A stretch of DNA of 64,000 nt from Gemmatimonadota bacterium (lineage in GTDB: Bacteria > Gemmatimonadota > Gemmatimonadetes > Gemmatimonadales > Gemmatimonadaceae): assembly GCA_026387935.1 (NCBI GenBank), contig JAPLKU010000012.1, positions 186,001-250,000 on the forward strand, given 5' to 3'. Made by a program: the position numbers and the translations under genes. This document shows, in pieces, positions 6,628-29,703 of the stretch (its first letter is position 1; the number at the start of each line of letters is the position of its first letter). The notes beneath the pieces were generated by a model. It made no database searches, was not told the DNA's origin, and saw only the letters and a list, made by a program, of their open reading frames with translations.

Positions 6628-6724
6628 GGGAGTGCATGGAGCCTGGTGGCTTCCTCAGTCTTCAAAACTGATGCGACCTGACTCTGTCGGGTTGGGTGGG
6701 TTCGATTCCCATGCGCTCCCGCCA
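6628..6724 (+). tRNA. selC: tRNA-Sec (anticodon TCA)
   Basis: 97 bases including an encoded CCA (6722-6724). All selenocysteine-tRNA features are visible: an 8-bp acceptor stem (6628-6635 with 6713-6720, one T-G pair), a 6-bp D stem with a 4-base loop (TGGT at 6644-6647), anticodon stem TCAGT/ACTGA around loop CTTCAAA with anticodon TCA at 6662-6664, a long variable arm, and T arm GTGGG/CCCAT around TTCGATT. Discriminator base is G73. It sits directly after selD, so the two probably share a transcript. With selD it implies that the genome decodes UGA as Sec; selA and selB are not in this window. Confidence 0.96.
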
Positions 6725-25413: not shown

Positions 25414-27249
25414 ATGACTGATACGCTCATCGCGCCAGCAGGCGCGCCAGCAGACGGGCCAGCAGACGGGCCAGCCGAAGTCAATTCGCTGACTACGCGC
25501 GAGAAACGCGACCTGCAAAAGGCGCAGCTTCGCCCCCTCTCCAATCGCCGGCCCGAACTGTACGAGGAAGACGAGTATTCGTCGGCCGACTACGAAGCGA
25601 TGATGGAGATGTACAACGGTACCCTGGCCGCGATCGAAGAAGGCGAGATCGTCAAGGCCAAGGTGCTGGACATTCGCGACAACCTCGTCGTCCTCGATAT
25701 CGGGTTCAAGTCGGAAGGCTCGATCCCGCTGGAAGAGTTCAAGGACATGCCGGACCTCAAGGCTGGCGATGAAGTCGAAGTGCTCCTCGAGCACCTCGAA
25801 GACCAGGAAGGCTCGGTTGTTCTTTCAAAGAAGAAAGCCGACTTCATGCGCGTGTGGGAAAAAATCCGCGTCGCGTACGAGTCGGATCAGCCGGTGGAAG
25901 GCGTGCTTGTCAAGAAGATCAAGGGTGGCGTGGTCGTCGACCTCATGGGCGTCGACGCATTCCTCCCCGGTTCGCAGATCGCGCTCCGTCGCGTCCCGAA
26001 CATCGACGATCTCCTTGGCCAGAAGTACGAGTTCAAGATCATCAAGCTCAACAAGCGCCGTCGCAACATCGTCGTGTCGCGCCGCGTGATTCTGGAAACC
26101 GAGCGCGCCGGCAAGCGCGAGAAGCTCATGAAGGAGCTCCAGAAGGACCAGGTGCGGAAGGGTACCGTCAAGAACATCACCGATTTCGGGGCGTTCATCG
26201 ACCTCGGCGGCGTCGACGGCCTGCTCCACATCACCGACATGTCGTGGGGCCGCATCCAGCATCCGACCGAGATGGTACAGATCGGTCTCGAGCTGGAAAT
26301 CAAGGTGCTCGACATCGATTGGGAACGCGAGCGCATCTCGCTCGGCCTCAAGCAGCTCCAGAGCTACCCGTGGAAGGACGTCGCGGCGAAGTACCCGGTC
26401 GGCACGCGCGTCTCGGGTAAGGTCGTCTCGATCACGAACTATGGCGCGTTCATCGAGCTCGAGCCGGGCATCGAAGGCCTCGTGCACATCAGCGAAATGA
26501 GCTGGACGCGCAATGTGCGTCACCCGTCGAAGCTCGTGTCGATCGGTGAGGCCATCGAGGCGGTGGTGCTCAAGGTCGATCCGACTGAAGAGAAGATCTC
26601 GCTCGGTATGAAGCAGACCGAGCAGGATCCGTGGATGGTGCTGCCGCAGAAATACCCGGTTGGCACGCGTCTCTCCGGCAAGGTTCGGAACCTGACCTCG
26701 TTCGGTGCATTCGTTGAAATCGAGCCGGGCATTGACGGCCTGATCCATATCTCCGACATGAGCTGGACGAAGCGCGTGCAGCATCCGTCGGACGTCGTGA
26801 AGAAGGGCGATGACGTGAACGTCGTCATCCTCAACATTGACGCCGAAAACAAGCGCATCTCGCTCGGCCTCAAGCAGGCCGAGGACGATCCGTGGCTCAA
26901 GATCGGCGAGAACTACCCGGTGGGAACGGAACTCCCGGGCACGGTGGTTCGCCTGATGGATAAGGGCGTGGTCGTGGATATCGGCAACGATATCGAAGGC
27001 TTCGTTCCGCTCTCGCACCTCAGCACGACGGGGAAGAACATCGACAGCCCGGCCGAAGTGGCGTGGGAGCAGATGGCGATGCAGATCCGTGTGCTCGAAG
27101 TGGATCCCATCCACCGCCGCATCGTGCTGGGCGTGGTGAGCATCCCGGAAGGCCAGGAACGTCCGGCAGAGCCGTCCAAGATTCACACGGAAGACGAAGT
27201 CGCGGAAATCCCGCCGATCGACATGAACGCCGTCATCGACGACGAATAG
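25414..27249 (+). CDS. rpsA: 30S ribosomal protein S1
   Basis: 611 aa with six S1 (OB-fold) domains in a row; it binds mRNA and helps 30S initiation. Repeats such as GTVKNITDFGAFIDLGGVDG, GKVVSITNYGAFIELEPGIE and GKVRNLTSFGAFVEIEPGID mark domains 3-5, and HISxMSW recurs. The first about 17 residues are a low-complexity stretch (APAGAPADGPADGPAE) coded by slipped repeats of GGGCCAGCAGAC. ATG 25414 is chosen since it lies downstream of the promoter; the frame is open further up but that part covers the promoter itself. Confidence 0.95.
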   Translation: MTDTLIAPAGAPADGPADGPAEVNSLTTREKRDLQKAQLRPLSNRRPELYEEDEYSSADYEAMMEMYNGTLAAIEEGEIVKAKVLDIRDNLVVLDIGFKSEGSIPLEEFKDMPDLKAGDEVEVLLEHLEDQEGSVVLSKKKADFMRVWEKIRVAYESDQPVEGVLVKKIKGGVVVDLMGVDAFLPGSQIALRRVPNIDDLLGQKYEFKIIKLNKRRRNIVVSRRVILETERAGKREKLMKELQKDQVRKGTVKNITDFGAFIDLGGVDGLLHITDMSWGRIQHPTEMVQIGLELEIKVLDIDWERERISLGLKQLQSYPWKDVAAKYPVGTRVSGKVVSITNYGAFIELEPGIEGLVHISEMSWTRNVRHPSKLVSIGEAIEAVVLKVDPTEEKISLGMKQTEQDPWMVLPQKYPVGTRLSGKVRNLTSFGAFVEIEPGIDGLIHISDMSWTKRVQHPSDVVKKGDDVNVVILNIDAENKRISLGLKQAEDDPWLKIGENYPVGTELPGTVVRLMDKGVVVDIGNDIEGFVPLSHLSTTGKNIDSPAEVAWEQMAMQIRVLEVDPIHRRIVLGVVSIPEGQERPAEPSKIHTEDEVAEIPPIDMNAVIDDE

Positions 27250-27262
27250 ATCGAGCATTGGC

Positions 27263-27298
27263 CACCCGCGCAGCGGCTTGACAGGCGCTGCGCGGGTG
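27263..27298 (+). terminator. rpsA terminator hairpin
   Basis: Perfect 13-bp stem CACCCGCGCAGCG (27263-27275) with CGCTGCGCGGGTG (27286-27298), 10-base loop. No T tract follows, so it may be factor-assisted or an mRNA-end stabiliser. The loop holds the TTGACA of the next promoter. Confidence 0.7.
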
Positions 27299-27306
27299 CC
27301 CAGACT
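27278..27306 (+). promoter_or_regulatory. Promoter of the tyrosine operon leader
   Basis: TTGACA 27278-27283 in the loop of the rpsA hairpin, 17-base spacer, CAGACT 27301-27306 (compare TAGACT before secD). Transcription would start around 27313, leaving only about 6 bases before the leader-peptide ATG, so the leader would be read from a near-leaderless start. Confidence 0.55.
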
Positions 27307-27318
27307 CACCTTCCGATT

Positions 27319-27399
27319 ATGAATACGCGTAGCTACTCCTATTATTACTCCGCCGCCGGCCGCCACACGGGCCGCACGGCTGGAGCGCTGCGCACGTAA
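27319..27399 (+). CDS. Tyr-rich leader peptide of the aroF-tyrA operon
   Basis: 26 codons (MNTRSYSYYYSAAG, then HTGRT-type sequence to the TAA). Codons 6-10 read Tyr-Ser-Tyr-Tyr-Tyr (27334-27348), an extreme bias. It precedes the tyrosine-branch operon and is followed by mutually exclusive hairpins and a terminator, so it is interpreted as a sensor of charged tRNA-Tyr: a ribosome stalled on the Tyr codons would expose 27366-27373 for antitermination. It has no clear Shine-Dalgarno. The product itself is not expected to have another function. Confidence 0.8.
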   Translation: MNTRSYSYYYSAAGRHTGRTAGALRT

Positions 27400-27436
27400 C
27401 AGCGAAACAGTCCTGCGAACACTTCACGGGCCCGTG
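27357..27436 (+). promoter_or_regulatory. Attenuator: protector and antiterminator segments
   Basis: Segment 1 CGGCC (27357-27361) pairs with GGCCG (27370-27374). Segment 2 CACGGGCC (27366-27373) is the exact complement of GGCCCGTG (27429-27436), the 5' arm of the terminator. Segments 1:2, 2:3 and 3:4 are thus mutually exclusive, as in amino-acid attenuators. Segment 2 begins 18 bases after the last Tyr codon, just beyond the expected edge of a stalled ribosome. Confidence 0.75.
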
Positions 27437-27461
27437 GAACTTCCACGGGCCTGTTTCGTTT
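27429..27461 (+). terminator. Attenuator terminator of the tyrosine operon
   Basis: Perfect 9-bp stem GGCCCGTGG (27429-27437) with CCACGGGCC (27443-27451), loop AACTT, followed by TGTTTCGTTT (27452-27461). It lies 21 bases before the DAHP synthase ATG, so it can only act as a conditional terminator of this operon. Confidence 0.88.
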
Positions 27462-27482
27462 ACCCCATCCTGAGTCTCGAAC

Positions 27483-28547
27483 ATGATCATCGTTACGCGC
27501 CCAGGCATCACCGAAATCCAGCTCGACGCCATTCGAGAAGCTGTCGAACGCGCCGGCTTTCAGACGCATCTCTCGCGCGGAGAGCACCGCACCATCCTGG
27601 GATGCATTGGGGACGAGCGGATGCTCAGCGAGGTGCCGCTTGCGACGCTGCCGGGTGTTGAAAGCGTCATTCCGATTCTCAAACCCTACCGTCAGGTGGC
27701 GCGCGATTTCCGCGCCGAGGCAACCATCGTCACCGTAGGCGAGGGCGTGGGCGCTTCGATTGGGGGCAACGCGCTCGCGGTGATTGCTGGGCCCTGCTCG
27801 GTTGAGGGCCGCGACATGTTGTTCGAGTCGGCACATGTGGTGAAGGCGGCCGGTGCGACGCTGCTGCGTGGCGGCGCATACAAGCCGCGCAGCTCGCCCT
27901 ACGCCTTCCGGGGCCTCGGTGAGGAAGCGCTCATGCTCCTCACCGAAGTACGCGAAGAGACCGGGCTGCCCATCGTGACCGAAGTGATGGACACGCGGCA
28001 GGTGGAACTCGTCGCCGCGCATGCGGACATGCTGCAGATTGGCGCGCGCAATATGCAAAACTTTGCGCTGCTTTCCGCTGTTGGCGAAGTCCGTCGCCCG
28101 GTACTGCTCAAGCGCGGGCTCTCGGCAACTGTCGAAGAACTGTTGCTCGCCGCGGAGTACATCCTCGCGCGCGGCTACGATCATGTTATTCTCTGCGAGC
28201 GCGGCATTCGCACGTTCGAGACCGCGACGCGAAACACGCTCGATGTGTCAGCCGTTCCGGTGCTGAAGCGCGAGACCCACTTGCCCGTCATCGTGGACCC
28301 GAGTCACGCGGGCGGAAAGGCGTGGCTCGTGGCGCCGCTCTCGTTTGCCGCGGTCGCCGCAGGCGCGGACGGGCTGATCATCGAAGTGCATCCGAAACCC
28401 TCGGAGGCCAAGTCAGACGCGGAGCAGTCGCTCACGCCCACTGACTTCAACGACGTCATGGCTCGGCTGCGGCCGTTCGCGGCGGCCGCAGGCAGAACGA
28501 TGGCAGCCGCAACACCGCTGATGGCTGGCGCAGGAGCAACCCGATGA
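27483..28547 (+). CDS. aroF: 3-deoxy-7-phosphoheptulonate synthase (DAHP synthase, type I-beta)
   Basis: 354 aa. It condenses PEP and erythrose 4-phosphate, the entry to aromatic synthesis. An N-terminal regulatory ferredoxin-like domain (about 1-70) precedes the barrel, as in Thermotoga-type enzymes that are inhibited by Tyr/Phe. Barrel motifs: AGPCSVEG (102-109), [14 protein letters not shown] (Lys134), [25 protein letters not shown] and VDPSHAGG. It is the first gene of the Tyr-attenuated operon and overlaps the chorismate mutase gene by 4 bases. The C-terminus has an A/G-rich tail. Confidence 0.95.
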
Positions 28548-28867
28548 CGCGCGAACGTGATGCGAAAGGCATGGCGGCAATCGATTCGCTGCGCGTGCGA
28601 ATCGAGAAGGCCGACGATGCGTTGCTGGCGCTCCTCCAGCGCCGGATGCGACTGGCGCGAGCCATCGGAAAGGCCAAGCAGGAAGCCGGACTGCCGATTC
28701 TCGACCCGGCGCGCGAGGCGCGCGTCGTCCGTCGAGTCGCGGCCAGGGCGCGCGAACTCGGCATGCCGGCTGAGGAGGTGCGCTCGCTCTTCTGGAACAT
28801 CATTGCGCTCTGTCGCAGCGAGCAGATCCATGCGCGCACCGCTCGGTCAGCGCGGAGCGTGAAGTGA
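28544..28867 (+). CDS. Chorismate mutase, AroQ class
   Basis: 107 aa, all-helical. It converts chorismate to prephenate. [22 protein letters not shown] is split here by position: Arg at about 17-20 and Leu-rich helix 1; [16 protein letters not shown] carries the conserved Arg/Lys; REARVVRRV follows. Stand-alone domain, not fused to prephenate dehydratase or dehydrogenase. Coupled on both sides (ATGA with aroF, GTGA with tyrA), so it serves the tyrosine branch. Confidence 0.9.
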
Positions 28868-29703
28868 AGGTCGCGGTCATCGGGCTCGGGTTGATCGGCG
28901 GGTCGATCGCTCGCGACCTCACCGCGGCCGGCCACACGGTTGTTGGGCATGACCGGTCCAAGGCGTCGCTGCGTTCTGCCCGGCGGGCAGGTGCTGTCGT
29001 CGAAGCGATCGGCGCGGACTTTGCCGGACTCGAGTCGTGCGATGCTTGCGTGCTCGCGGTGCCCGTGCTTGATGCGCCGAGGTTGCTCGCGCGCGCCATC
29101 AAGCAGCTGCCCGCATCCGCTCTGATCACCGACGTCGGGAGTACCAAAGTGTCGATCGTCCAGGCAGCTGTCAGGCTCGGCGCAGCGGACCGGTTCGTTG
29201 GCGCGCACCCGTTCGCCGGCGATCACCGGTCCGGGTGGAAGGCCTCGCGACGCGGACTCTTTGCTGGGGTATCCGTGTTCCTGACACCGACTCGGGCCAC
29301 GCGACCAGCGATGTTGGCGAAGTCCAGGAAGCTCTGGCGCGCAGTTGGCGGCAAGCCGAAGGTCGTGTCGGCCACCGAGCACGATGCGCTGATGGCTGGC
29401 GCCAGTCACCTTCCGCAGCTCGTGTCATCGACACTGGGTGCTTCGCTGCTCCGCGCCGGCGTGTCGCGCGCAACGCTCGGGCGCGGAGGGCGAGATGTGA
29501 CGCGGCTCGCAGGGTCAGATCCCCGCGTCTGGAGTGCGATTCTACTCGACAATGCAGACCGCATCGCGCCACTGGCGCGGGCTAACGCACGATTGCTTGC
29601 GAAGTTCGCACAGGCGCTTGACCGAGGTGACGGCGCAGCCGTTCGCCGCCTGTTGACCGACTCGAATCGCTGGTTCAGGGCAGGCCCACCTGCCCAGGCC
29701 TGA
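28864..29703 (+). CDS. tyrA: Prephenate dehydrogenase
   Basis: 279 aa. NAD-binding loop VIGLGLIGGS (5-14), TDVGSTK, GAHPFAGDHRSGW (substrate His region; family motif GxHPMxG, here with Phe), ATEHDALMAGASHLPQ. It oxidises prephenate to 4-hydroxyphenylpyruvate; arogenate use cannot be excluded. GTG 28864 overlaps the chorismate mutase stop. It has no C-terminal ACT domain, so feedback may act on the DAHP synthase and on the attenuator instead. Confidence 0.92.
   Translation: MKVAVIGLGLIGGSIARDLTAAGHTVVGHDRSKASLRSARRAGAVVEAIGADFAGLESCDACVLAVPVLDAPRLLARAIKQLPASALITDVGSTKVSIVQAAVRLGAADRFVGAHPFAGDHRSGWKASRRGLFAGVSVFLTPTRATRPAMLAKSRKLWRAVGGKPKVVSATEHDALMAGASHLPQLVSSTLGASLLRAGVSRATLGRGGRDVTRLAGSDPRVWSAILLDNADRIAPLARANARLLAKFAQALDRGDGAAVRRLLTDSNRWFRAGPPAQA

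Follow-up and report, generated by a model that had tools for sequence, protein, structure and literature searches.

The leader preceding the aroF–chorismate mutase–tyrA operon of a Gemmatimonadota bacterium of the family Gemmatimonadaceae is proposed to control transcription by ribosome-mediated attenuation in response to charged tRNA-Tyr, a reading to which a probability of about 0.9 was assigned. The operon lies on the forward strand of a 64,000-nucleotide stretch of contig JAPLKU010000012.1, hereafter the window, and the parts of the leader and operon given below are on that strand. Sensing of charged tRNA-Tyr had been suggested in a preliminary description of this DNA, and is now supported at the sequence level by conserved aromatic codons, covariation of segments 2 and 3, the spacing of segment 2 and the match between leader codons and operon content. 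In the proposed mechanism, transcription would start just 5' of the leader ATG and the ribosome would load on a nearly leaderless RNA. With ample Tyr-tRNA, it would pass codons 6–10 and hairpin 1:2 would form, leaving segment 3 free for segment 4, and transcription would end at the terminator, ahead of aroF. Under a shortage of Tyr-tRNA, the ribosome would stall at codons 6–10 and cover segment 1; segment 2 would then pair with segment 3 while segment 4 has yet to be made, and transcription would continue into aroF-CM-tyrA.

Domain matches agreed with the earlier assignment of the operon to the tyrosine branch. They identified a DAHP synthase (DAHPS) of the TIGR01361 type (PRK08673, TIGR01361; 27483–28547), a chorismate mutase (CM) of the AroQ class (28544–28867) and the prephenate dehydrogenase TyrA (28864–29703), the adjoining genes sharing 4 bp overlaps. 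The leader peptide ORF, MNTRSYSYYYSAAGRHTGRTAGALRT (27319–27399), has the 26 codons initially reported, with Tyr at codons 6, 8, 9 and 10 (27334–27336, 27340–27342, 27343–27345 and 27346–27348). These four control codons, spanning 27334–27348, are not accompanied by any Phe or Trp codon, and Tyr is kept at this place in DAHPS-CM-TyrA operons. The Tyr-rich leader ORF is no chance ORF, since among the 427 small ATG ORFs of the window it is the only one having 4 or more Tyr within 8 codons, and shuffled windows gave 0.033. The ATG, the frame and the aromatic cluster are kept in relatives, where the clustered codons also match the operon, as expected of the short ORF of a ribosome-mediated attenuator.

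Re-reading of the sequence confirmed all coordinates of the preliminary description. Segment 1 (27348–27361), which begins at the last Tyr codon, was found by folding as the 5' strand of the 1:2 hairpin with 27370–27385 as partner; the pairing announced earlier, CGGCC at 27357–27361 with GGCCG at 27370–27374, is present. Segment 2, CACGGGCC (27366–27373), sits wholly within the leader ORF and mimics the 3' arm of the terminator. Its assignment as antiterminator strand is based on complementarity, covariation and geometry, and it is, as claimed, the exact reverse complement of GGCCCGTG at 27429–27436. A terminator scan placed segment 3, the 5' arm, at 27426–27438, and segment 4 at 27442–27461, made of the 3' arm (27442–27454) and the T-rich tail TTCGTTT (27455–27461). 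The presence of a terminator with a T-rich tail was therefore correctly reported, while its size was not: the stem at 27426–27454 has 13 pairs instead of 9. It is the sole terminator-like site in 27200–27500, where 0.2 are expected, and it provides the intrinsic terminator that an attenuator carries between leader ORF and first structural gene. The fold of the leader region gave a z of -4.7.

A putative sigma-70 promoter was detected upstream of the leader by hexamer scan (27278–27306), with a perfect -35 hexamer (TTGACA, 27278–27283), a 17-nt spacer and a weak -10 hexamer (CAGACT, 27301–27306; 3/6). Because of this weak -10, a stricter promoter scan of the window region reported no promoter. 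A TTGACA-like hexamer with a spaced -10 precedes the leader ATG in 56 of the 75 orthologous leaders, and a promoter score of at least 8 was reached at 45 loci vs 1.1% of shuffled sequences. The commonest gap between -10 and ATG is 6–7 nt (34 of the 56 promoter-bearing loci), from which transcription is predicted to start at or near the A of the leader ATG. In the window, where the gap is 12 nt and the -10 weak, about six bases are predicted to precede the ATG in the transcript. The leader mRNA appears to be leaderless or almost leaderless.

Conservation was investigated in 61 relatives and in 256 genomes of the class, in which two DAHPS paralogs were distinguished, the first about 60–85% identical to the DAHPS of the window and the other (paralog B) near 50%. 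Upstream regions of first-paralog genes were collected (107, one contig, L014/L032, being counted twice) and searched for an ATG ORF of 14–60 codons with at least 3 aromatic codons in 8 and a terminator within 90 nt. Such an aromatic leader with terminator was found in 75/107 regions, while none of the 15 regions upstream of paralog B displayed an aromatic leader ORF. The comparison of DAHPS upstream regions in relatives, proposed at the outset as a check, showed that aromatic codons, terminator and 2:3 pairing are kept with compensatory changes; non-conservation of the Tyr codons or of the pairing had been named as what would speak against attenuation, and the reading withstood this examination in the relatives. 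Leader and terminator are absent from several orthologs, chiefly in genera g60 and g66 of family f7 (L176–L185, L200–L207), where the switch appears to have been lost. At one further locus (L013) the terminator is kept and the leader has just one Phe and one Tyr.

The pairing of segments 2 and 3 was scored at each locus and compared with pairs swapped between loci. The own pairs scored 22.1 vs 17.6 for swapped pairs (sd 0.43; 0/2000 permutations) and 15.5 for base-shuffled stretches, and removal of duplicate pairs (67 loci) gave 21.9 vs 17.1 (sd 0.48; 0/5000). A weaker excess was obtained for segments 1 and 2 (11.9 vs 10.8, sd 0.23; 0/2000). The terminator arms vary by lineage (GGCCCGTG, GGCCCCGG, GGCTCCCG, GGCCCTCGG, GGCCTCCGG) and segment 2 follows these changes (CACGGGCC, CGGGGCCG, CGGGAGCC or CGGGAGTC, CCGAGGGCC, TCCGGAGGCC), indicating that segments 2, 3 and 4 changed together. 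The pairing of the antiterminator strand with the 5' arm of the terminator, as attenuators require, is hence kept by compensatory change.

The position of segment 2 was determined by an unconstrained search of the whole leader ORF at the 75 loci. In 68 of them, the best segment 2 starts 6–18 nt past the last aromatic codon, while 17% would be expected from ORF length; the commonest distance is exactly 10 nt (25/75). In the window this distance is 17 nt, the interval being taken up by segment 1. As known from toeprints, about 10 nt downstream of the A-site codon are covered by the ribosome. Segment 2 thus sits at about the place where a ribosome stalled at the last aromatic codon would be predicted to expose it.

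Ribosome position was then modelled by folding the transcript made before segment 4, with the ribosome footprint masked as unpaired. The mean probability of the 2:3 antiterminator in this model was about 0.8 with the A site at or before the last aromatic codon, and 0.49, 0.18, 0.08 and 0.01 at one, two, three and four codons past it. For the window, the modelled probability was 0.00 in ribosome-free RNA, 0.98 with the ribosome stalled at the last Tyr and 0.00 with the ribosome at the stop codon. In silico, the position of the stalled ribosome decides which helix forms, a further feature of ribosome-mediated attenuators. The 1:2 hairpin found in the fold of the window is weak or absent at many other loci, and at 39/75 loci the model favours the 2:3 helix in ribosome-free RNA as well. 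Hairpin 1:2 is consequently no universal off-switch, and at these loci the off state would have to come from the moving ribosome or from features outside the model. Four leaders (L132, L136, L141, L158) do not fit a simple ungapped 2:3 model.

The codons of the leaders were compared with operon content at the loci with readable downstream genes. Aromatic clusters average 84% Tyr in front of TyrA operons (n=27), 65% Phe where a prephenate dehydratase (PDT) gene lies beside or is fused to DAHPS (n=7), and 51% Tyr, 30% Phe and 20% Trp at loci without CM, TyrA and PDT (n=28). Trp occurs in 2/27 TyrA clusters vs 24/30 clusters without CM or TyrA (Fisher P = 2e-8, a value that ignores phylogeny), and the Phe content of PDT vs TyrA operons differs with P = 1e-4, likewise ignoring phylogeny. 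On the DAHPS tree, the starred branches force at least 5 changes of the TyrA label. In the window and its three closest congeners, Tyr is the sole aromatic amino acid of the cluster. The clearest case is one of these congeners, G005, which has a DAHPS-CM-TyrA operon with the leader MSTLYASYYYYAVGRHTGRTAGARRG and a separate DAHPS-CM-PDT operon, whose leader MSRRALFTSAFFFGPHTGPERSFVRA contains Phe and no Tyr; segment 2 and terminator are of the same type in both. From these data, the predicted Tyr specificity is a property of operons also holding tyrA, with Phe in the PDT orthologs and mixed Tyr/Phe/Trp at stand-alone DAHPS. One mixed leader reads FYGFRYWF (L006). Two exceptions were noted: FFYFFY before a TyrA operon (L008), and an all-Tyr leader with TyrA undetected in the 1.2 kb after CM (L009).

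Several side observations belong here. The Phe-type operon of G005 (L116, L258; G005:C114) shares its contig with ilvB and leuA homologs, and its DAHPS is on a long branch. In a different family of the order, a PDT-DAHPS fusion (L250, about 1322–1412) has a leader reading WFFGYF. The downstream ORFs tested at stand-alone DAHPS loci revealed no aromatic genes, several of these ORFs being spurious high-GC frames, and no convincing Trp leader before trpE nor branched-chain leader before ilvB/leuA was found in the relatives. Aromatic-rich leaders with terminator-like sequence also precede DAHPS outside the phylum, in Desulfacinum (L080), Bittarella (L086), a Fusobacteria MAG (L098) and Pelosinus (L099); that of Bittarella is Tyr-rich (SYYGYRYLGYFY) with TyrA downstream. 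These leaders suggest that the same attenuator solution recurs beyond the phylum.

It is likely that the leaders form a modular, near-leaderless attenuator family present throughout the Gemmatimonadota, in which codons are swapped in line with operon content and which would include a first Tyr-specific leader-peptide attenuator. Tyr would be read before DAHPS-CM-TyrA, Phe before DAHPS(-CM)-PDT, and Tyr/Phe/Trp before stand-alone DAHPS, where the mixed leaders would work as an OR gate responding to a lack of any one aromatic amino acid.

Such mixtures raise the possibility that the switch of the window is of a general aromatic type, opened by a shortage of any aromatic aminoacyl-tRNA or by generally slow translation. 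Tyr is indeed mixed with Phe and Trp in many orthologs and a TyrA-type operon is preceded by FFYFFY at L008, but the mixed codons are associated with loci without TyrA, as seen in the distribution of Trp (2/27 vs 24/30 clusters), and the Tyr-only cluster of the window is shared by its three closest congeners, which makes a general response unlikely. A short ORF before an operon would also fit an arrest peptide of the TnaC or SpeL kind, sensing tyrosine in the exit tunnel and stalling the ribosome. The peptide outside the aromatic run varies freely, however, the aromatic residues are exchanged to match the operon type and the spacing of segment 2 to the last aromatic codon is kept; moreover, an arrest triggered by abundant Tyr would cause antitermination, the opposite of what a biosynthetic operon needs. 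Nascent-peptide arrest is accordingly regarded as very improbable.

Two further explanations carry hardly any weight. Just 69 nt separate the stop codon of rpsA (ribosomal protein S1) from the leader ATG downstream of it, so that the hairpin could be a mere rpsA terminator and the ORF a product of chance. The hairpin nevertheless starts 177 nt past that stop, beyond the leader ORF, and the persistence of leader, terminator and 2:3 covariation across the class already refutes this explanation. A T-box riboswitch, or another tRNA- or tyrosine-binding RNA, would find a precedent in the RNA-level Tyr control known in Firmicutes (PMC1262725). Against it, the Rfam covariance scan gave no family at gathering score at the leader, the best sub-threshold match there being an unrelated sRNA (E 0.17), and it seems scarcely credible. 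The T-box and the Trp, Phe, His, Leu and Thr leader families were absent from the matches listed there, both at the gathering threshold and with E values up to 5.

Other elements were observed around the operon and in the genome. In the interval separating rpsA from the leader, a 20-nt inverted repeat (27259–27302), its arms 90% complementary and 4 nt apart, lies on either side of the -35 TTGACA and may represent an operator or a 3' hairpin of rpsA. The two closest congeners (G003, G005) have, by eye, different repeats at this position. A selenocysteine tRNA gene was identified at 6628–6720 by a strong Rfam match. The acetolactate synthase large subunit (TIGR00118) and leuA (TIGR00973) had no match in the genome of the window (G000, an assembly about 95% complete), which suggests a possible branched-chain amino acid auxotrophy.

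The preliminary description knew of no such attenuator in this lineage, and a search of the open-access literature found no paper linking Gemmatimonadetes to leader-peptide attenuation. No Tyr-specific leader-peptide attenuator was found among the open-access matches listed, and within this scope that of the window would be the first. The attenuators encountered in the literature address His, Thr, Phe, Trp and branched-chain amino acids, RNA-level control by Tyr being ascribed to T-boxes; a Tyr-reading leader would fill this gap. Naville and Gautheret (2010), who described leader-peptide systems in Firmicutes, knew of none demonstrated earlier in any group other than Proteobacteria and Actinobacteria (PMC2965389). 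The paired changes of codons and operons, including Tyr and Phe versions in one genome, represent a natural experiment on the evolution of attenuator specificity; they also inform on multi-amino-acid (OR-gate) leaders and provide a rule for designing sensors of aromatic amino acids.

Among known systems, control of Tyr-branch genes by tyrosine status is shared with the Tyr T-boxes of Firmicutes, which sense tRNA directly, and with TyrR, the protein repressor acting on aroF-tyrA in E. coli, both unlike the leader of the window in working without leader-peptide translation. A survey of Actinobacteria ascribed Tyr control at the RNA level to T-boxes and named attenuators for His, Thr and Phe (PMC1262725). 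For E. coli aroF, attenuation had once been put forward as a hypothesis, as noted in PMC8632094. The same paper predicted a Phe-type uORF in the uORFC-13-1 motif upstream of Acholeplasma aroF; like the leader of the window, it combines a candidate uORF and a terminator before a DAHP synthase gene, but it has Phe codon(s), a different sequence and lineage, and is a prediction alone. The attenuators of E. coli (pheL-pheA, trpL-trpE, his, thr, ilv and leu) share control codons, an antiterminator/terminator switch and a product matching the codons, while the window differs from their generally known design by its Tyr codons, a transcript predicted to be near-leaderless and a segment 2 wholly inside the ORF. 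A leaderless leader peptide is found in the ilvBNC attenuator of Corynebacterium glutamicum, where transcription starts one nucleotide from the start codon (PMC11857589), in another phylum and for branched-chain amino acids. The nearest system found is aroR of the same organism, an aromatic leader peptide before the DAHP synthase gene aroF with ribosome-mediated attenuation. With its single Phe-Tyr-Phe motif, aroR responds to Phe limitation and not to Tyr (Neshat et al., 2014, via the review PMC11802643; also PMC4046766), whereas the leader of the window has four Tyr, lacks Phe and Trp, and belongs to an operon with tyrA as its last gene.
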